This document shows, piece after piece, positions 7,722 through 19,073 of a stretch of 34,323 nucleotides of DNA. The stretch's first letter is position 1. Each line of letters starts with the position of its first letter. The stretch covers positions 1-34,323 of the forward strand of contig JALUYG010000338.1 in NCBI GenBank assembly GCA_027013105.1, in the 5' to 3' direction. Origin of the DNA: Mariprofundus sp. GTDB lineage: Bacteria; Pseudomonadota; Zetaproteobacteria; Mariprofundales; Mariprofundaceae. The notes beneath the pieces were generated by a model. That model saw only the letters and a program-made list of their open reading frames with translations. It made no database searches and was not told where the DNA came from. The position numbers and the translations under genes were made by a program.

Positions 7722-10706
7722 TTAGCTCAGGATCTGTTTGATGCGCTGTTGCAGGGATTCGGGGGTGTAGGGTTTCTGGATAAAGCTTGCCGGCGGATGA
7801 TCGGCGAACTGTTCGTTAATTTCCTCAGCGCTGTAACCGCTGGAGAGGATCACTTTCACCTCAGGGTTGATGTTCAGCAGGGCGGCGAAGCAGGCTTTTC
7901 CATCCATTTTCGGCATGGTCATATCCAGCAGCACTGCATCCACTTCAGCCAGGCGCTGGCGATAGAGCGCTACAGCCTCTTCGCCGTTACAGGCGGGGAT
8001 GGTGTCAAAACCGACCTCTTCGAGCATCATGCAGGCGACTTCGCGGATATGCGCTTCATCATCCACCACCAGAATGGCGCCCTGTCCATGATCGCTGCCG
8101 GCATCGGCAGCCGCCGCCGCATGCTGTTGCGTAGCGCTTTCGGCGCTGACCGGCAGCAACACCCTGAATGTGCTGCCCTTGCCGGGTTTGCTATCGACAA
8201 GAATAGCGCCATGGTGGCCGCGTATAATGCCCAGCATGGCGCTCATGCCCAGTCCCCTGCCGGTAAATTTGGTGGTGAAGAAGGGGTCGAACATTTTTTC
8301 CATGGTGGCTTTATCCATGCCGCAGCCGCTGTCCGACACCTCAAAATAGACATATTCGCCAGCCGGCAACTGTTCGCCGGTGCGTGTGGCGGCAAGATAT
8401 TTCCGTTTGGCCTGCATGACGCCGGTGGAAAACAGAATCTCGCCATGCCGATCGCCGATCGCTTCATTGGCGTTGGTGATCAGGTTGAGAATCACCTGAT
8501 GAATTTGGGCCGGATCGGCGTCGATCAATGGCAGATCCGCCTGCAGATCGTAACGCATCTGCACCTGCTTGCTGAGTGAGACCTCCATCAGGCGGGTCAT
8601 ATCGCCCACCAGTTCGGAGAGGTTGACCGGCTTAATGACAAAGTGGCCTTTGCCGGAATAGGCCAGCATCTGTTTGCACAGTTCGGCGGCGCGCTGGCTG
8701 GCTTCGTTGATGCGGTTCAGGTGGGTGCGTAGATCACCACCGTTATCCATGCTGCGTTCAGCCATGCTTGCATTGCCGAGAATGGCGGTCAGCAGGTTGT
8801 TGAAATCATGGGCGATGCCGCCGGCCAGAATGCCGAGGCTCTCCAGTCGCTGCGTGTGCTCCATCTGTCGGTCGCGCTGTTTGGCCTCGGTGATATCGCG
8901 GTCGATACAGATCTGGTGGTGCACCTTGCCATTTCCATCCATGATCGGAGAGATGCGCCGGGCCACCAGGCGCTCCTCGTTGTCGTGCGGGTGAAACAGC
9001 ATTTCTCCGCACCAGGTGTCGCCGCGCTTGACCGTGCTGATGATCTCCCGGTAGGTGGCATCGCCCGGCTGGCCGCCGCGCAGATCGGCTGCGGATGCGC
9101 CGATCATTCGGTTCAGCGGCTTGCGGTAGAGCGTCGCTGCCGCCGGATTGGCAAACTCAACCACTCCGTCGGCATCCAGCACCATAATCCCCTCATGACT
9201 GGCATGGATGGCTTTAATCAGCAGATCCAGCTTTGTTTCAGCCTCTTTACGCACCGTCAAATCGCGGGCAATGGCATGCACGGCGACCGATTTCCCGGCT
9301 GTGCTGATCAGTTTTGAATTGATCTCCAGGTGATGGCGACGGCCGGCCATATCGATGGCATCGGCTTCATAGATGGTATTGCCGCCCTGCATGAGTTTTG
9401 TCGCCAGCATGCTTTTAGCCCGGGGCAGGTGTTCGGGGGCGACAATGTCGAATACGTTTTTACCGATAATGTCGCTGCCGAACTGCTCTTTGCAGGCTGC
9501 ATTGGCGGTGAATACAACGCCGTCCAGATCATGGGCGAAGATCAGATCGTTGCTGTGCTCGACGATGGAAGCGAGCTGGGCTTCCTGCTGGCGGGCTGTT
9601 TCCAGCGCTGCACGACTGCGGCAGTTTTCAATGGCCAGCCCGGTCAGGTTGGCGATCTGCCCGATCAGTTGCAGGTCGTCATCGGAAGGGTGGCGGACTT
9701 CGTGGTAATACATCGCAAATGTACCCAGCACATTGCCGCCCGGGTCTCGAATCGGTTCCGACCAGCACGCTTTTAAGCCGATGGCCAGTGCCGCCTCACG
9801 ATAATCCGTCCATAACGGATCGGTGGCGATGTCGGAGACAACCACGCGTTCATTACGGAACGCGGCCGTGCCGCAGGAGCCTGTCGACGGGCCGATTTCA
9901 GCGCCGTCAACGGCATCGTTCCACGCTTTCGGCAGGCTGGGCGCGGCGCCTGTGCGGATATGTTTGCCATCGTCATCCAGCAGCAATATCGAGGCGATCA
10001 TACCGGGGCGCTTGTTTTCAACCCGATTGACGATAGAGGCCAGAATCTCAGGCAACTCGCCGTGGTGGCGGGCAATGGCGTCGAGAATTTGTTGCTGCAG
10101 CTCAAGGCGCTGTTCGTGCGTTTGGCGCAGGGCTACCTCTGCCGTTAGTTGCGCATTCTGTTCTGCGGTGGCGTGCAGCAGCAGGGTGTTGCGCCGGGCG
10201 ATGATGGACAGTCCAACCGCATAGAGCAGGACAGCGATACCCAGTGTGGTATAGACGCCTGTTTGCTGCATGAACAGCCACAGGGTTAACGGTATCAGAT
10301 CGGGAAGCGTAAATGCATAAAACAGCCGCATATCACCGGCATAGGCGCTGCTGCAGCCGGCGACAAGGCCGATTAGCGTCAGAATCAGAATCGACTGATA
10401 AGCGGTATCCAGATATGGCAGAAATAGTGGCGCACTGAGGCCCCAGATCAGGCCTGATAGCATGGTTAGTAGCAGTTGCAGGCGGCTGCGGTGCTGCAAT
10501 CGGCTGCCGTATCGAATCACGAACAGGCGCAGGCAGTAGACAACCAGAATTGAAGTCAGCCAGCTACCCAGCAGTTCGGTGTTGAGAAGGGTTCTGAACG
10601 TCGCTGCGATCAGCAAAGCCAGGATGGCCGATGTGATAATGGCCGTATAACGCTGCCAGCCCATGGCAACAGCAATATCGTCTTCAATGTCGGTTGCGCT
10701 ATTCAT
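7722..10706 (-). CDS. Membrane hybrid histidine kinase (TM-GAF-PAS-PAS-HisKA-HATPase-REC) inside the flagellar cluster
   Basis: A 994-residue sensor kinase. About six hydrophobic helices (residues 20-190, MASE-like, no extracellular domain) are followed by a coiled coil, a GAF domain (about 215-365), two PAS domains (about 375-490 and 495-615), a HisKA dimer domain with phospho-acceptor His near 633 in LAGGIAHDFNN, an ATPase domain (NLITNANEAI, DSGCGM, GRGLGMSA) and a C-terminal receiver with LLDMTMP, Asp near 927. No output domain is present, so the phosphate is probably passed on or the receiver modulates the kinase. It lies between fliP and fliQ, 73 bp after the fliP stop, and could be cotranscribed. 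No good ribosome binding site is seen. Its catalytic half is closely similar to the kinase at 16482-19073. Confidence 0.93.
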   Translation of the reverse strand: MNSATDIEDDIAVAMGWQRYTAIITSAILALLIAATFRTLLNTELLGSWLTSILVVYCLRLFVIRYGSRLQHRSRLQLLLTMLSGLIWGLSAPLFLPYLDTAYQSILILTLIGLVAGCSSAYAGDMRLFYAFTLPDLIPLTLWLFMQQTGVYTTLGIAVLLYAVGLSIIARRNTLLLHATAEQNAQLTAEVALRQTHEQRLELQQQILDAIARHHGELPEILASIVNRVENKRPGMIASILLLDDDGKHIRTGAAPSLPKAWNDAVDGAEIGPSTGSCGTAAFRNERVVVSDIATDPLWTDYREAALAIGLKACWSEPIRDPGGNVLGTFAMYYHEVRHPSDDDLQLIGQIANLTGLAIENCRSRAALETARQQEAQLASIVEHSNDLIFAHDLDGVVFTANAACKEQFGSDIIGKNVFDIVAPEHLPRAKSMLATKLMQGGNTIYEADAIDMAGRRHHLEINSKLISTAGKSVAVHAIARDLTVRKEAETKLDLLIKAIHASHEGIMVLDADGVVEFANPAAATLYRKPLNRMIGASAADLRGGQPGDATYREIISTVKRGDTWCGEMLFHPHDNEERLVARRISPIMDGNGKVHHQICIDRDITEAKQRDRQMEHTQRLESLGILAGGIAHDFNNLLTAILGNASMAERSMDNGGDLRTHLNRINEASQRAAELCKQMLAYSGKGHFVIKPVNLSELVGDMTRLMEVSLSKQVQMRYDLQADLPLIDADPAQIHQVILNLITNANEAIGDRHGEILFSTGVMQAKRKYLAATRTGEQLPAGEYVYFEVSDSGCGMDKATMEKMFDPFFTTKFTGRGLGMSAMLGIIRGHHGAILVDSKPGKGSTFRVLLPVSAESATQQHAAAAADAGSDHGQGAILVVDDEAHIREVACMMLEEVGFDTIPACNGEEAVALYRQRLAEVDAVLLDMTMPKMDGKACFAALLNINPEVKVILSSGYSAEEINEQFADHPPASFIQKPYTPESLQQRIKQILS

Positions 10707-12045: not shown

Positions 12046-12363
12046 TCAGCCGAGGCTGCTGATGCGGGCGGATGGCGGCACAATTTCGGTAATGCGCACG
12101 CCCAGTTTGTCGCCGGTGGAGACAACCTCGCCTTTGGCGAAGATCGAGCCGTTGGCCAGTATCTGCACCTCGGCATTGGCCTCCTTGTTCATTTCGATCA
12201 CCATGCCCTTGTTCATGCGGGCGATGTTGTGCAGCGGCATTTTGACGCGTCCGAGCTCGACGCTGATCTCCAGCGGCACATGCATAATGGCCTCCAGATT
12301 GGCGGTTGCCGCCTGATCGGGCTGAGCGCCCGCTGAATTTTCTGATGTGGCAGTGTCTGTCAT
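12046..12363 (-). CDS. fliN: Flagellar motor switch protein FliN
   Basis: C-ring subunit that works with FliM and FliG in torque generation and rotation switching. The 105-residue length is short-form FliN. A variable acidic/Ala-Gln N-terminus is followed by the SpoA (FliMN_C) domain: MHVPLEISVELGRVKMPLHNIARMNKGMVIEMNKEANAEVQILANGSIFAKGEVVSTGDKLGVRITEIV. The start overlaps the fliM stop by ATGA, showing translational coupling. Confidence 0.96.
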   Translation of the reverse strand: MTDTATSENSAGAQPDQAATANLEAIMHVPLEISVELGRVKMPLHNIARMNKGMVIEMNKEANAEVQILANGSIFAKGEVVSTGDKLGVRITEIVPPSARISSLG

Positions 12364-13352
12364 GATGCGCCTCCGGGTTCAACAGGTTGGGTGATTTCAG
12401 CCGCTAGCATGCCCTCTTTTTCGCCCGGCATGGCCTGAAACAGCGGCGTGTCTTCGATCCAGAGGGAGCATGGGTCGCTGGCTCTGGTTTTCAGGGGCAG
12501 GGCGTCGCCGGGTTTGAGTGTCAAAAATGTGCCGATATCCATCTGGCAGCGCCCCAGTTCGAAACGGACTTCGGCCGGCGTGCCTGCAATACTCCGTAGC
12601 AGCTCGCCGGTCCACTCCTCATCGTTATCGGGAGTGTCGTCGCTGAGTTCGACGCGCAGCATCTCCAGCATCGGATCCAGAAACGGGCGCGGATAATGGA
12701 TGCCCAGCTTGCCGGTTAGCGAATCGCTCAGTTTCGCCTCGAAATAGACGCTAAAGCACTTCTCCATGGCGCCGGTGACAGCCAGGAATTGCGGATCATA
12801 ATCCAGCTTGTAGGCCTTGAATGCCAGGGCGTGGACCGGCGCCCACAGTTCGCTGAGCATGTTGGCCATTTTTTCGGCGATGCGCTCGGAGAGACGCAGT
12901 TCAACGGGCGATAGCGTTTCCGGATTGTCGGTGGATTCGCCGTCGCCGCCCAGCATGGCATCGACAAAGGCGACAATGATGGCGGTATCAAAGGTGAGCA
13001 GAATGCGTCCGTAGCTATCCACTTCAAAGACAAAATAGACCTGCGGCTCATCCACGGCGATAATATCTTTGTAGAGGCTGGTATCCATGCGTTCCACCTG
13101 AATGGTGATATCGCGCTTGAACAGTTCATCCCACTGTTCATCCAGCATCTCAACCATGCGCTCCTGCAGGTTGACAAACATCGGATAGCGTGCCGGTTTG
13201 TCTTCGTCGGCAGCGTCAAAATGGAAGGCGTCCACCCGCTCCGGCTGTTGGATTGGCGGCAGTGCGGCAAACAGCGCATCGGCGTGTTCGGACGGGGCTA
13301 CGGTCGCCATCAGCGCTTCGACCTCTTCCGGGGCCAGAATCGGTTCGCTCAT
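12360..13352 (-). CDS. fliM: Flagellar motor switch protein FliM
   Basis: C-ring protein that binds CheY-P and drives switching. The 330 residues begin MSEPILAPEEVEALMATV; a switch-binding LSQ-type N-terminal peptide for CheY is not obvious in its usual form. The middle CheC-like domain (LQERMVEMLDEQWDELFKRDITIQVERMDTSLYKDII) and GILxIHYPRPFLDPML-type motif are recognisable. The C-terminal SpoA domain includes LGRCQMDIGTFLTLKPGDALPL. It follows fliL closely and overlaps fliN by 4 bases. The ribosome binding site is weak (GAGAGC). Confidence 0.93.
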   Translation of the reverse strand: MSEPILAPEEVEALMATVAPSEHADALFAALPPIQQPERVDAFHFDAADEDKPARYPMFVNLQERMVEMLDEQWDELFKRDITIQVERMDTSLYKDIIAVDEPQVYFVFEVDSYGRILLTFDTAIIVAFVDAMLGGDGESTDNPETLSPVELRLSERIAEKMANMLSELWAPVHALAFKAYKLDYDPQFLAVTGAMEKCFSVYFEAKLSDSLTGKLGIHYPRPFLDPMLEMLRVELSDDTPDNDEEWTGELLRSIAGTPAEVRFELGRCQMDIGTFLTLKPGDALPLKTRASDPCSLWIEDTPLFQAMPGEKEGMLAAEITQPVEPGGAS

Positions 13353-13382: not shown

Positions 13383-13901
13383 CTATTGCGACACGAAATC
13401 AGAGAAATAGAGTTTTTTCACCGGCTTGCCGCCGACAAGCCGGTTGATGCGGTAGATGAGATCCATTTTCAGCTCATATTTCCCCTGCGGCGTGCGTATT
13501 TCGGAAAATTTCTTGCCGCTGATTGTTGAGATGAGCAGATCCTTGATTCCGACCATTTTTTCCGACACCTTGGTCTTGGCATCTTCACTGCGCAGCTCCA
13601 GTGTGATTTTGACGCGCAGGTAACGGTCCCGATCGGTGTCGGCCAGGTTGATGGTGAGGTTATCGACATCCATGGAGACCGGGGTCGCATCGCTTTCATC
13701 ATCGGCTTCGGGAATGGCCGTTTCATCTGTCTGCTGGACAGCGGCGGTTTTGGGAGCCTCGGACGGCTGTTCCATGCTCATCATCTTCCAGGCGATAAAG
13801 CCGCCAACCGCCAGCACCAGCACCAGCAGCACCAGATTGATAATCGGCAGCAAACCGCCACCGGATTTTTTCTGTTCTTCGCCTGCTTCTTTGTCAGCCA
13901 T
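13383..13901 (-). CDS. fliL: Flagellar basal body stator-associated protein FliL
   Basis: Single-pass inner-membrane protein that surrounds and stabilises stator units. The 172 residues have a charged cytoplasmic N-terminus (MADKEAGEEQKKSGGG), one membrane helix (about 17-38, LLPIINLVLLVLVLAVGGFIAW), an acidic linker and the periplasmic FliL domain (LTINLADTDRDRYLRVKITLELRS through NRLVGGKPVKKLYFSDFVSQ). A strong GGAGGA ribosome binding site lies just upstream. It directly follows the two motB-family genes, which suits a role next to the stator. Confidence 0.94.
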   Translation of the reverse strand: MADKEAGEEQKKSGGGLLPIINLVLLVLVLAVGGFIAWKMMSMEQPSEAPKTAAVQQTDETAIPEADDESDATPVSMDVDNLTINLADTDRDRYLRVKITLELRSEDAKTKVSEKMVGIKDLLISTISGKKFSEIRTPQGKYELKMDLIYRINRLVGGKPVKKLYFSDFVSQ

Positions 13902-13963: not shown

Positions 13964-14662
13964 TCATTTGTAGACCACAATCTCCACCCGCCTGTTTTTG
14001 CTGCGTCCGAACGGCGTGGCTTCTGTCGAAACAGGGCGGGACGGGCCATAGCCTGCCAGTGACAGACGGCCAGGATTGACGCCTTCATCCTCCAGTACAT
14101 GCAAGACTGATGCCGCTCTGGCCAGAGAGAGCGTCCAGGGGTCGGAAAACTTCGAGCGGCTCAGGTCGGGGTTGATATTGGTGTGGCCCTGAATGCGGAT
14201 GTTGCCCGGCGTCATGGCCAGCATCTGGGCCAGTTTTCGCAGCGACTGAATATGCTTCGGTTTGAGCACGGCGCTGCCCCGGTCGAACAGAACAGAGTCG
14301 GGAATGCGCAGGTAGAGGCGATCCTTGATGATCACCCCCTTGACCTTATGTTCCAGCGTGCTGTGTTTGAGGATGGCCTTGCTGTTCTGGCGCATGGCCA
14401 GCATCAGCTCGCGAGGGCTGACCAGCTTCTGCATTTCAAACGGCGGGATGATCTGCAGCTCTGTTTTGTCGCCGGCGTTGAATACGGAGACGGCCTTGCG
14501 AAAGGATGTTTCGATATCGGAGAGGCCGGTTTTATCCATGGTGGACATGGAGATAAGCAGGATGAAGAAGGTCAGCATCAGGCTGACCAGATCGGCGAAG
14601 GTGGTCATCCACGCCTCGGTGTTGGGCAGGTATTCGACCGGGTACTTTTTCTTTCTGGCCAT
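13964..14662 (-). CDS. MotB-family stator protein, channel Asp present, altered peptidoglycan-binding site
   Basis: Stator subunit with one membrane helix and a periplasmic OmpA/MotB domain; 232 residues. The membrane motif FADLVSLMLTFFILLISM carries the conserved ion-binding Asp (near residue 24). In the periplasmic domain the motif usually written GHTD...NWELS..RA reads GHTN...DPWTLSLARA, so the Asp that normally contacts peptidoglycan is Asn while the Arg is kept. The NRRVEI end motif is intact. The ATG overlaps the stop of the neighbouring motB-like gene by one base. It is one of two tandem MotB paralogues with complementary changes. Confidence 0.9.
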   Translation of the reverse strand: MARKKKYPVEYLPNTEAWMTTFADLVSLMLTFFILLISMSTMDKTGLSDIETSFRKAVSVFNAGDKTELQIIPPFEMQKLVSPRELMLAMRQNSKAILKHSTLEHKVKGVIIKDRLYLRIPDSVLFDRGSAVLKPKHIQSLRKLAQMLAMTPGNIRIQGHTNINPDLSRSKFSDPWTLSLARAASVLHVLEDEGVNPGRLSLAGYGPSRPVSTEATPFGRSKNRRVEIVVYK

Positions 14663-15426
14663 TACAGTCTGGGCGCCTGAATGGCGGGGCGGTGGTGCTG
14701 GTGAATGGGGCCGTTCTCAATGTTTTTTGCGGTGACCGGGCGGAATTTCAGGGTGATATCGACTCGGCGGTCAAATTCCGGATGCCCCTTGACGGGGTGT
14801 TTGTCGCCCATGCCCGCCGCAATCATGCGGGAGTTGGCGACGCCGCGAGCGGAGAGGGCGTGAAATACGCTCATGGCGCGGGCGGCGGAGAGCTCCCAGT
14901 TGGAGGCGTAGATGGAGCCGTGCACCGGCTTGTCGTCGGTGTATCCGGCAATGCGGATCTCAGTCACCTCGGGGCGGCTGAAAATTGGCGCCAGTTTATC
15001 CATCATCCGCTGCGCTTTTTCCGACAGATCGACATGGCCGGGCGCGAAAACAAGGTGTTGGGCGAAGCGCACGCGCACCGTCTGCTTATCCAGCGGCAGG
15101 ATGGTCATGGCGTCATCGGCGCCCAGTGCTTTGGCGACCTCTGTCAATTCTTTGGCGGTGCGTTTGGGAGCCTGAATGCCCTTGACAACGCTGCGCGCCG
15201 GCAAGGCCGGTCCGTGCCCCTGGGTGAGATTGGCGCCGCGCGGCAACGGATTGAATGTACCGGCCAGCGAACCCATGGCGGCCAGCCGTTTATCCTCAAC
15301 GATCACGGCGTAGGAGGTGAGCAGGATGAAGAAGGCCAGCATCTGCATCATCAGTTCGAGAAACAGCGCCGCGCCCGGATCGGCCGGGAACGGCAGCGGC
15401 GCCGGTTTTTTGTCGCGCTTAGCCAT
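14662..15426 (-). CDS. MotB-family protein with Glu at the channel Asp position
   Basis: A 254-residue OmpA/MotB-domain protein encoded between motA and the other motB. Its membrane segment is FLELMMQMLAFFILLTSYAVI, which aligns with FADxxxxMLxFF and places Glu where MotB has its essential Asp. The periplasmic domain has the standard peptidoglycan-binding motif GYTDDKPVHGSIYASNWELSAARAMSVFHAL, with both Asp and Arg present, and FDRRVDITL near the end. A polar tail of about 25 residues rich in His and Pro (NGPIHQHHRPAIQAPRL) follows. A GGAGAAAA ribosome binding site supports the start. It may be a heterodimer partner of the neighbouring MotB around MotA; this is an inference. Confidence 0.88.
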   Translation of the reverse strand: MAKRDKKPAPLPFPADPGAALFLELMMQMLAFFILLTSYAVIVEDKRLAAMGSLAGTFNPLPRGANLTQGHGPALPARSVVKGIQAPKRTAKELTEVAKALGADDAMTILPLDKQTVRVRFAQHLVFAPGHVDLSEKAQRMMDKLAPIFSRPEVTEIRIAGYTDDKPVHGSIYASNWELSAARAMSVFHALSARGVANSRMIAAGMGDKHPVKGHPEFDRRVDITLKFRPVTAKNIENGPIHQHHRPAIQAPRL

Positions 15427-15458: not shown

Positions 15459-16217
15459 TTAATCGAAGGAGGATTTACGCTCTTTCGGCGGCAGATAGCC
15501 GAGCAGCTTCTGCTCCATGACGCGCGGATTTTCGCCAGCGACCAGCGACTGGATGCCGACCAGAATGATCTCATGAATGAGCAGCTCCTCCTTGCTGCGC
15601 GTTTTCAGTTTTCCCGACATGGGCAGAAACAGGATATTGGCCATCAGGGCGCCGTAGAAGGTGGTCAAGAGGGCGATGGACATCGAGGGGCCGATCGATG
15701 ACGGATCGGACATGTTCTGCAGCATCAGCACCAGCCCGACCAGCGTGCCGATCATGCCCATGGAGGGGGCGTAGGTGCCCAGGGCTGTGAACATATCGGC
15801 GCCGAGGGTGTGGCGGTCGGCGACTTTCTCCATCTCCATGTAGAGAATATCCTCAATGGCGGCCGGCTCCTGCCCGTCGATGGCCATCTGCAACCCCTTG
15901 GCCATAAACTGGTTCTCAATACTGCCGACCTCGCTCTCCAGCGCCAGAATGCCATCCTTGCGCACCGTCTGGGCCAGCTCTACCAGCTTGGCGATCACAT
16001 CGGGGCCTTTATCGACTTTGTACATGAAGGTTTTCATCACCACGCCGATCACACTGAGGCACTTGGGCAACGGGTAGCCCACCAGTAGCACGCCGACCGT
16101 GCCGCCAATAACAATCAGCATGGATGGCGGATCGATAAAACTGGCGATGCCGCCGCCGATGGCGCCGGCCACCAGGCCGAATGCTACTAATATGCCGATA
16201 ACTGTTGCTATATCCAC
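15459..16217 (-). CDS. motA: Stator channel protein MotA (PomA-like)
   Basis: Four-helix stator subunit that forms the pentamer around the MotB pair and converts ion flow to torque. The 252-residue protein is of the short PomA/MotA type. Conserved features are the cytoplasmic charged loop (VRKDGILALESE), the Pro in YAPSMGMIGTLVGLVLML and the Pro in ANILFLPMSGKL. The sequences GTLVG and ALLTTFYGAL match the Thr-bearing pore positions of sodium-driven PomA, so Na+ coupling is plausible but not proven. It starts with GTG five bases after a strong AGGAGG site. It is the first gene after the sigma-54 promoter and heads the flagellar operon. Confidence 0.94.
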   Translation of the reverse strand: MDIATVIGILVAFGLVAGAIGGGIASFIDPPSMLIVIGGTVGVLLVGYPLPKCLSVIGVVMKTFMYKVDKGPDVIAKLVELAQTVRKDGILALESEVGSIENQFMAKGLQMAIDGQEPAAIEDILYMEMEKVADRHTLGADMFTALGTYAPSMGMIGTLVGLVLMLQNMSDPSSIGPSMSIALLTTFYGALMANILFLPMSGKLKTRSKEELLIHEIILVGIQSLVAGENPRVMEQKLLGYLPPKERKSSFD

Positions 16218-16481: not shown

Positions 16482-19073
16482 ATGCCGCTTCGACGGGTTC
16501 AGGCACATTTTTCCGATCATAGCGGCAAGGTGATTGCCGTGCTGTTCCTGCTGCTGGCCGGCGTGTTGACATGGCTGTCGCTGATGCAGATTCGACATCA
16601 CACCCTGGAAGTCGCCGCCGAATCGCTGTGGGGTGTCAACCGACTGACAGCGGAACGCTTGCAGCAGCAGAGCGCCGATATGATTTCCGCCAGCAACTCG
16701 CTGGTCTCCAATGCGCCGATCCATGCACAACTGCTAAGCCTGCTCAGGGGTGAAGCGGGCTCCGGCGCGCGTTTTGAACTGCGGCGCAGCCTGGCGGCAT
16801 GGATGGTGGCGCACCACTTTCGTGACTTTTATCTGCTCAATCCCGATGCCAAAATTGTTGCCGGCATGCGCGAGGCGGACAACGCCGCCGCAGCGCCGGA
16901 AGCGATTGCTGCCATGCTGGGTGATGTGATGGATGGCGAGGGGCTGATTTCGCACGCTTTTCGCGTCGGGGATGATGTGCAGATGTGGCAACTGACGCCG
17001 ATCTTTGATGCCGGGGGCAAAGCGGCTGGCGCACTCGGGCTGGTGATGGATCGGGCGCGTCATTTCGGCCGCACCACCATGCTGGGGCGTTTCGCGCAGT
17101 CGGTGGAAACCTATCTGGTGGATCGGCAGGGGCGCATGCTCACGCCCAGCCGGTTTGAGGATCAGCTTCGTCGCGGCGGGCGGCTTGGGCTGCATGAGAG
17201 CAGCGTGCTCAACCTGAAGGTGGAAAAGCCGGGAAGCGATCATCCCACTTACGCCGTCGCCCACATGCTGGATGCGCCGGACGGCTCCAATATTGAAGGG
17301 TATTCCGACTATCGCGGCGTGCCGGTGATCGGCGTCTGGCAGTGGGACAAGGCATTCGATGCAGCCGTGATCACCGAGGTCGATCTGGATGAAGTGCTGG
17401 CCGACTACCGCCGCACCCGCAACCTGATTCTGGCGCTGCTGGCGGGGCTGCTGCTGGCCGGGTGGTTGATCACCCGTGGCTATGTTCGTTTCCAGCGTCG
17501 CCAGCAGAGTGAGCAGCATGCCTTGCGCAATTTGCTGCTGGAATCCACGGCCGAAGCAATTTACGGCATGGATCTCGATGGCCGCTGCACCTTTGCCAAC
17601 AACGCCTGTGTGCAGATGCTCGGATTTGAAGATTCGGAGGCGCTGCTGGGTCGCAACATGCATCAGCTGATCCACCACTCGCATGCCGATGGCACGGCCT
17701 ACGACGAGCAGTCCTGCCGGGTCTTTCGCGCCTTTCGCAACAAGACCCGCGTGCATAATCGGGATGAAGTGTTCTGGCGGCGCGACGGCAGTTGCTTCCC
17801 GGTGGAGTACTGGTCGCATCCGGTTTTTGACGACGATGGCGAGCTGATCGGCGGCGTGGTGACATTCTGGGATATTTCCGAACTGCGCAAAGCCGAGGAT
17901 GAGCGGCACAAAATTGAGCAGCAGATTCAGCACAGCCAGCGGCTGGAGAGCATGGGGGTGCTGGCCGGCGGCATTGCCCACGATTTCAATAATATTCTTT
18001 CAGCCATTCTCGGCAATGCGGCGCTGGCCGCCCGCAAGGTGATCAGCGATCCGCTGGATGCGCGCGAAAAGATGGAGAAGGTGGTGCAGTCGTGCGATCG
18101 CGCATCGGTGCTGTGTCGTCAGATGCTGGCCTACTCGGGCAAGGGCAAGTTTGTGGTCAGGCCGCTGAATCTGTCGGACATGGTGGAGGAGATTACCCAT
18201 CTGCTGGAGGTGTCGCTCGATAAAGGCGTGGTGATCAAATATTCTCTGGCCGACAGATTGCCGCTGGTGGAGGCCGACGAAGCGCAGATGCAGCAGCTGA
18301 TTATGAATCTGGTCACCAACGCCAACGAGGCGATAGAGGGCAAGAGCGGCGTGATCTCCATTACCACCGGCGTCATGCATGCCGATGCCTCCTATCTGCT
18401 GGACTGCTATGGCGATCATCCGCTGCCCGGCCGCTACGCCTATGTGGAAGTCAGCGATACCGGCTGCGGCATGGACGCCGACACGCGGGCGAAGATTTTC
18501 GACCCCTTCTTTACCACCAAGTTCACGGGCAGGGGACTGGGTATGAGCGCCGTGCTCGGCATTGTGCGCGGCCACCACGGCGCTCTGAAGCTCTATTCCG
18601 AGCCGGGCAAGGGCACCACCTTCAAATATCTGATTCCGGCCACGGGCGAGTTGAGCGAAGATGAGGCGCAGCAGCTTGAAGATGATCACTGGCGAGGGCA
18701 CGGGCTGGTGCTGGTGGTCGATGATGAGGAGACGGTGCGCGAAACGGCCATGATGATGCTCGAAGATATGGGGTTTGTCGCTATCGGGGCGGAAAACGGC
18801 GTTGAGGCGCTGGAGATCTACGGCAAACGCCGCGATCAGATTGATGTGGTGCTGATGGATCTGACCATGCCGAAGATGGGCGGCGAGGCGTGTTTCCGCG
18901 AACTCAGGCGCATCAACCCGAATGTGCGGGTGGTGCTCTCCAGCGGCTATAACGAACAGGATGCCATTCAGCACTTTACCGGCAAGCATCTGGCCGGATT
19001 TATTCAGAAGCCTGTGTCGCCGGATCGCCTGAAGCACGCCATGCACGAGGCCATGGGGGATGATGATGCGTAG
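16482..19073 (+). CDS. Membrane hybrid histidine kinase with periplasmic sensor (TM-Cache-like-TM-PAS-HisKA-HATPase-REC)
   Basis: An 863-residue sensor kinase divergent from motA. Helix 1 (about 17-37) and helix 2 (about 313-334, LILALLAGLLLAGWLITRGYV) bracket a periplasmic domain of about 275 residues that looks like a double Cache sensor. A PAS domain (about 350-480) follows, then HisKA with His near 500 in LAGGIAHDFNN, an ATPase domain (NLVTNANEAI, DTGCGM, GRGLGMSA) and a receiver with LMDLTMP, Asp near 793. No DNA-binding output is present. The stop codon overlaps the start of a PstS-like binding protein gene by 8 bases. Its kinase core is nearly the same as that of the kinase at 7722-10706, with a different sensor. 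Confidence 0.94.
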   Translation: MPLRRVQAHFSDHSGKVIAVLFLLLAGVLTWLSLMQIRHHTLEVAAESLWGVNRLTAERLQQQSADMISASNSLVSNAPIHAQLLSLLRGEAGSGARFELRRSLAAWMVAHHFRDFYLLNPDAKIVAGMREADNAAAAPEAIAAMLGDVMDGEGLISHAFRVGDDVQMWQLTPIFDAGGKAAGALGLVMDRARHFGRTTMLGRFAQSVETYLVDRQGRMLTPSRFEDQLRRGGRLGLHESSVLNLKVEKPGSDHPTYAVAHMLDAPDGSNIEGYSDYRGVPVIGVWQWDKAFDAAVITEVDLDEVLADYRRTRNLILALLAGLLLAGWLITRGYVRFQRRQQSEQHALRNLLLESTAEAIYGMDLDGRCTFANNACVQMLGFEDSEALLGRNMHQLIHHSHADGTAYDEQSCRVFRAFRNKTRVHNRDEVFWRRDGSCFPVEYWSHPVFDDDGELIGGVVTFWDISELRKAEDERHKIEQQIQHSQRLESMGVLAGGIAHDFNNILSAILGNAALAARKVISDPLDAREKMEKVVQSCDRASVLCRQMLAYSGKGKFVVRPLNLSDMVEEITHLLEVSLDKGVVIKYSLADRLPLVEADEAQMQQLIMNLVTNANEAIEGKSGVISITTGVMHADASYLLDCYGDHPLPGRYAYVEVSDTGCGMDADTRAKIFDPFFTTKFTGRGLGMSAVLGIVRGHHGALKLYSEPGKGTTFKYLIPATGELSEDEAQQLEDDHWRGHGLVLVVDDEETVRETAMMMLEDMGFVAIGAENGVEALEIYGKRRDQIDVVLMDLTMPKMGGEACFRELRRINPNVRVVLSSGYNEQDAIQHFTGKHLAGFIQKPVSPDRLKHAMHEAMGDDDA

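Follow-up and report, generated by a model that had tools for sequence, protein, structure and literature searches.

A flagellar gene cluster of Zetaproteobacteria with two complementary MotB paralogues and a proposed unequal stator

Two tandem motB genes in a Mariprofundus flagellar cluster

Known flagellar stators are MotA5MotB2 complexes. The stretch of DNA analysed here (the window: 34,323 nucleotides, contig JALUYG010000338.1 of the Mariprofundus sp. assembly GCA_027013105.1) carries a flagellar cluster in which a single motA is followed by two different motB genes, motB1 and motB2. The cluster shares with the canonical MotA5MotB2 and PomA5PomB2 systems a MotA homologue, B chains with one transmembrane (TM) helix and an OmpA-like peptidoglycan-binding domain, and an accompanying fliL, but its two B genes are not identical: one product is without the channel Asp, and in the other the peptidoglycan site is partly degenerate. 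The relevant features are as follows.

15459..16217, minus strand: motA, PomA-like MotA of 252 amino acids, GTG start; PF01618, best NCBIfam match PomA PRK08990
14662..15426, minus strand: motB1, 254 amino acids, directly after motA; Glu at the channel Asp position, peptidoglycan motif intact
15355..15357, minus strand: motB1 codon 24, GAA (Glu24), in LFLELMMQMLAFF
14875..14946, minus strand: motB1 peptidoglycan motif, GYTDDKPVHGSIYASNWELSAARA, with Asp164, Asn176, Trp177, Ser180 and Arg183
14660..14664, minus strand: motB1/motB2 junction, TAATG, motB1 stop and motB2 start with a one-base overlap
13964..14662, minus strand: motB2, 232 amino acids; channel Asp present, peptidoglycan motif eroded
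14591..14593, minus strand: motB2 codon 24, GAT (Asp24), in FADLVSLMLTFF
14114..14188, minus strand: motB2 eroded peptidoglycan motif, GHTNINPDLSRSKFSDPWTLSLARA, with Asn162 in place of Asp, Pro where NW has Asn, and Arg182 retained
13383..13901, minus strand: fliL, PF03748, next gene in the cluster
12360..13352, minus strand: fliM, PF02154 and PF01052, next flagellar gene, given for context

The initial annotation had placed both motB genes between motA and fliL and had read one product as keeping the channel Asp beside an altered GHTN motif and the other as carrying Glu beside a full peptidoglycan motif; both observations hold, on the minus strand and at residue level. Judged by the features that define MotB and PomB, MotB1 has the single N-terminal TM helix, the OmpA-like periplasmic domain, and the peptidoglycan Asp and conserved Arg (Asp164 and Arg183, within the full motif GYTDDKP...NWELSAARA), but lacks the channel Asp. 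MotB2 has that Asp (Asp24) and the Leu and Arg of the peptidoglycan site, but Asn162 replaces the peptidoglycan Asp and NWxLS has lost its Asn as well (GHTN...DPWTLSLARA). In a related protein this peptidoglycan Asp makes the contact with meso-diaminopimelic acid (m-DAP; PMC3080404). The Pfam matches are OmpA in MotB1 (PF00691, 59 bits) and MotB2, MotA_ExbB in MotA and FliL in FliL, while MotB_plug matches MotB2 (60 bits) and is not found by Pfam in MotB1.

No other motA lies in the flagellar cluster of the window. The Thr positions of the MotA motifs GTLVG and LLTTFYGA are kept among 53 homologues, and by motif comparison they correspond to positions on the ion path of PomA (PMC6677748). Elsewhere in the same genome there is an ordinary second motA-motB pair (genome G000, contig C335, locus L002, 952-2603) with both the channel Asp and a full peptidoglycan motif, which rules out the idea that this genome has no ordinary MotB. 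Two large hybrid histidine kinases with PAS, HisKA, HATPase and receiver domains, one also with GAF, flank the flagellar block of the window at 7722-10706 (minus strand, immediately downstream of fliP, which lies on that strand too) and 16482-19073 (plus strand).

Conservation of the residue split in Zetaproteobacteria

A search of 120 relatives was followed by retrieval and alignment of the loci; the residue counts in this section refer to 54 Zetaproteobacterial loci. Among these iron-oxidising bacteria, more than 50 genomes from the window's own genus, family and order keep the arrangement motA-motB1-motB2-fliL, and named carriers of the tandem include Mariprofundus ferrooxydans PV-1, M. micogutta, M. 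erugo and Ghiorsea. In nearly all loci motB1 directly follows motA, and among 48 named relatives the motB1-motB2 spacing is -1 to +6 in 43; the overlap of stop and start suggests coupled synthesis. Within the class, the 53 genomes that carry motB1, the window's included, also carry motB2, and one further genome has motB2 at a contig end.

Position 24 of MotB1 is Glu in 49 loci and Gln in four, is cut off in one, and is never Asp, whereas the same position of MotB2 is Asp in 54/54. At the peptidoglycan site MotB1 is invariant (Asp164, Asn176, Trp177, Ser180 and Arg183 in 54/54), while MotB2 keeps Leu178 and Arg182 throughout (53/53), lacks the NWxLS Asn without exception, and varies at position 162 (Asp 27, Asn 19, Ser 6, Gly 1). 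The set of peptidoglycan Asp, Asn and Arg is complete in 51/51 MotB1 but in 0/52 MotB2. Two other residues of the MotB channel motif, Trp and Thr, are likewise absent from Zetaproteobacterial MotB1. The difference first read from one pair of proteins is conserved position by position as a split between the paralogues, and no Zetaproteobacterial locus has both residues in both proteins. A split that holds over 54 loci is not chance.

Could the asymmetry nevertheless be that of relaxed duplicates drifting apart without any function? Divergence is common among duplicates, but residues that are invariant in each paralogue across the class, together with perfect co-occurrence, rule out a decayed duplicate, and a single MotB1 clade extends over several phyla (see below), so that functionless drift can be given hardly any credence.

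Four divergent loci (L052-L055) carry Gln in MotB1. In all four, MotB2 is without the peptidoglycan Asp (Ser in the alignment) and Gly replaces the Ala that precedes its channel Asp. As homodimers, such pairs would give one complex without a channel acid and another without the peptidoglycan Asp and Asn. Within the genus, a Gln-type locus, its MotB1 about 45% identical, is present in two single-contig genomes (G007 and G011), and the Glu type in 17 others and in the window's own; this spread suggests that the whole motB1-motB2 unit has been exchanged or replaced.

These residues bear on the possibility that the two proteins form alternative homodimeric stators, MotA5(MotB1)2 and MotA5(MotB2)2, that share MotA, in which Glu would serve as a slower site for the ion. 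The genes have the same arrangement in the motA-motB1-motB2 operon of Aquifex aeolicus, and chimaeras with either of its MotB TM regions are motile (PMC4525482); Asp-to-Glu mutants of MotB are also partly functional (PMC6663468). However, the two Aquifex TM regions are 97% identical and show no residue split (PMC4525482), whereas those of the present pair differ at most positions, which rules out a near-identical duplication of the Aquifex type. A homodimer of MotB1 would moreover have no ion-binding acid at that site where the residue is Gln, Ser, Ala, Asn or Gly, and a decaying peptidoglycan site is hardly something that a stand-alone MotB2 stator could afford. We regard shared use of MotA by two homodimers as improbable.

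Predicted structure and conservation of the TM helices

MotB1 and MotB2 are each predicted to consist of a TM helix and an OmpA-like domain, the MotB1 helix spanning residues 17-40. Both models match periplasmic structures of MotB, PomB and MotS, and the nearest solved structure to both is 3KHN, the periplasmic domain, which is the only solved part, of the MotB-like DVU_2228 of Desulfovibrio vulgaris. The TM segment is the most conserved stretch of MotB1 (pairwise identity 0.88, against 0.63 overall), and that of MotB2 is similarly constrained (0.91 against 0.66). Conservation so far above the whole-protein level fits what would be expected if both helices faced one MotA ring.

The tandem outside the class and the ancestry of MotB1

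A scan of named genomes found the same tandem at four Nitrospirota loci and at one locus of a "Deltaproteobacteria" metagenome-assembled genome. In all five MotB1 the channel residue is Ser and the peptidoglycan motif is complete, save that Met replaces Arg in the "Deltaproteobacteria" protein. The sample was widened to 148 Nitrospirota genomes and 247 genomes of a second phylum, that of the "Deltaproteobacteria" seed record (L113), which NCBI files under Myxococcota. Outside the class, 28 distinct tandems combine a MotB2 that has Asp with a MotB1 that has no acid at the channel position (Ser in 18, Ala in 8, Asn and Gly in one each); single MotB proteins of the same samples have the channel Asp in 88/90 cases and the full peptidoglycan set of Asp, Asn and Arg in 90/90. 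Among 399 sampled Pseudomonadota genomes, high-scoring MotB1 occurs in Zetaproteobacteria only, at least 283 bits for sequences with the TM region against at most 122 bits outside the class.

In a tree of 83 MotB proteins, MotB1 from all phyla forms one clade (ultrafast bootstrap 99, SH-aLRT 87) that excludes both the partner MotB2 and the single MotB, and a larger quick tree agrees. In the tree of MotB1 the sequences with Glu group as one clade next to the Gln lineages, and those outside are mostly acid-free, so that the Glu of the window is plausibly a carboxylate regained from a neutral ancestor and not a weakened Asp; the base of this tree is weak, and two Asp-bearing loci (L212 and L214) that fall near it limit this reading. 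Since the anchoring loss of MotB2 is graded, with the full motif often kept outside the class, acid loss in MotB1 is the older of the two traits and the more general. Another motB-motB tandem, in the Nitrospirota genomes G456 and G420 (L223 and L224), has an independent origin in the tree. Its first copy has Asp and its second Thr at the channel position, with the peptidoglycan motif intact in both, an apparent case of convergent acid loss in the opposite gene order.

The intact grip of MotB1 could also be that of a protein outside the MotA ring, a membrane-tethered peptidoglycan scaffold that holds MotA5:(MotB2)2 in place much as MotY and other periplasmic scaffolds do for stators. Such a role would suit a protein that keeps its peptidoglycan site but has no channel Asp and, in Zetaproteobacteria, no channel-motif Trp or Thr, beside a Zetaproteobacterial MotB2 that has lost part of its own grip and would need an anchor. 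MotX, MotY and the other scaffolds likewise provide extra help in holding stators, but they are separate periplasmic ring proteins, whereas MotB1 is homologous to MotB and has a TM segment that is conserved. That segment is nearly as conserved as the one in MotB2, beyond the needs of a plain membrane anchor; the position of motB1 next to motA also speaks against a scaffold, and many MotB2 in other phyla keep their own peptidoglycan site and would need no extra anchor. A scaffold is an unlikely, though not far-fetched, role for MotB1.

Acid-free sequences raise a further question: could MotB1 be a brake or regulator that competes for MotA, giving inactive or slow stators and so tuning motor output? 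In other stators MotB does not work once its channel Asp is replaced by a neutral residue, as such a role would have it. One-to-one co-occurrence, overlapping genes and strong conservation of the TM and peptidoglycan regions are a better fit to a structural partner, however, and a brake leaves the decay of the MotB2 grip unexplained; we consider it quite improbable.

A proposed unequal MotB dimer

The reading that we favour, and hold to be rather likely, is that the cluster encodes an obligate MotA5-MotB1-MotB2 stator with an unequal central dimer, in which MotB2 carries the essential ion site and MotB1 is the partner that holds the peptidoglycan. One MotA pentamer would enclose the two different B chains as an obligate heterodimer. 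MotB2 would supply the essential ion-binding Asp, and MotB1 a second TM axle helix without Asp together with the more reliable peptidoglycan grip. A stator whose MotB1 carries Ser, Ala, Asn, Gly or Gln would have a single ion site; in most Zetaproteobacteria, the window's included, the MotB1 Glu is probably a second, unequal site. An obligate heterodimer within MotA5 would account at once for the co-occurrence of the two genes, their overlap, the neutral residue in the channel and the complementary erosion. In other stators Asp-to-Asn at the channel residue abolishes function and Asp-to-Glu weakens it (PMC6663468), so a MotB1 homodimer in the Gln, Ser and Ala lineages should be dead.

Several observations weigh against this proposal. 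The Glu of MotB1, which the initial annotation had counted as a loss, would not be one by itself, since Asp-to-Glu mutants of other MotB still move, if weakly (PMC6663468); the argument for a lost ion site therefore rests on the Gln, Ser and Ala lineages. The suggested division of ion binding and anchoring between the paralogues stands as a conserved residue split between co-occurring genes, but the anchoring half is not general: outside Zetaproteobacteria MotB2 often has the full peptidoglycan motif and has lost part of its Asp, Asn and Arg set in 10/31. Even within the class the loss of anchoring in MotB2 is partial, for the Asn is gone from all but the Asp from only about half, and the Arg and Leu are always kept. 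In the L212 and L214 tandems both MotB copies have the channel Asp, and it is the MotB1-clade copy whose peptidoglycan motif is eroded. A tree of the periplasmic region by itself does not strictly reproduce the MotB1 clade (2 changes), and Fisher P values on the residue patterns are only indicative, as related sequences overstate independence. The unequal complex is itself a proposal from sequence, and the structural models are of single proteins.

Motors with two different B subunits have been considered before. The Myxococcus AglR-AglQ-AglS system also combines one MotA-like with two MotB-like proteins, and a review of ion-driven rotary motors leaves open whether heterodimers form in such two-B-subunit motors (PMC9389320). 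AglQ and AglS are both predicted to carry the membrane Asp and serve a gliding motor, unlike the flagellar MotB1/MotB2 pair. In the literature, covered through open-licence papers only, no account of such an unequal pair, no described acid-free MotB and no Mariprofundus MotB was found.

What would one acid per stator mean for rotation? In the general model for ion-driven rotary motors of 5:2 stoichiometry, the two ion sites are equivalent and one turn takes ten ions in 36-degree steps (PMC9389320). Extended to a single ion site in the acid-free lineages, this model would give five ions and 72-degree steps, unless the mechanism is one not yet described. It is conceivable, if doubtful, that these proteins represent a natural class of stators with one ion-binding carboxylate per MotA pentamer, running at about five ions per turn in 72-degree steps, and that crown Zetaproteobacteria have secondarily acquired a second, chemically different site in the form of Glu. 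If true, one-Asp stators would be a natural experiment on the two equivalent sites and ten ions per turn of the general model, on whether ions must bind to both B chains, and on whether a single peptidoglycan anchor suffices.
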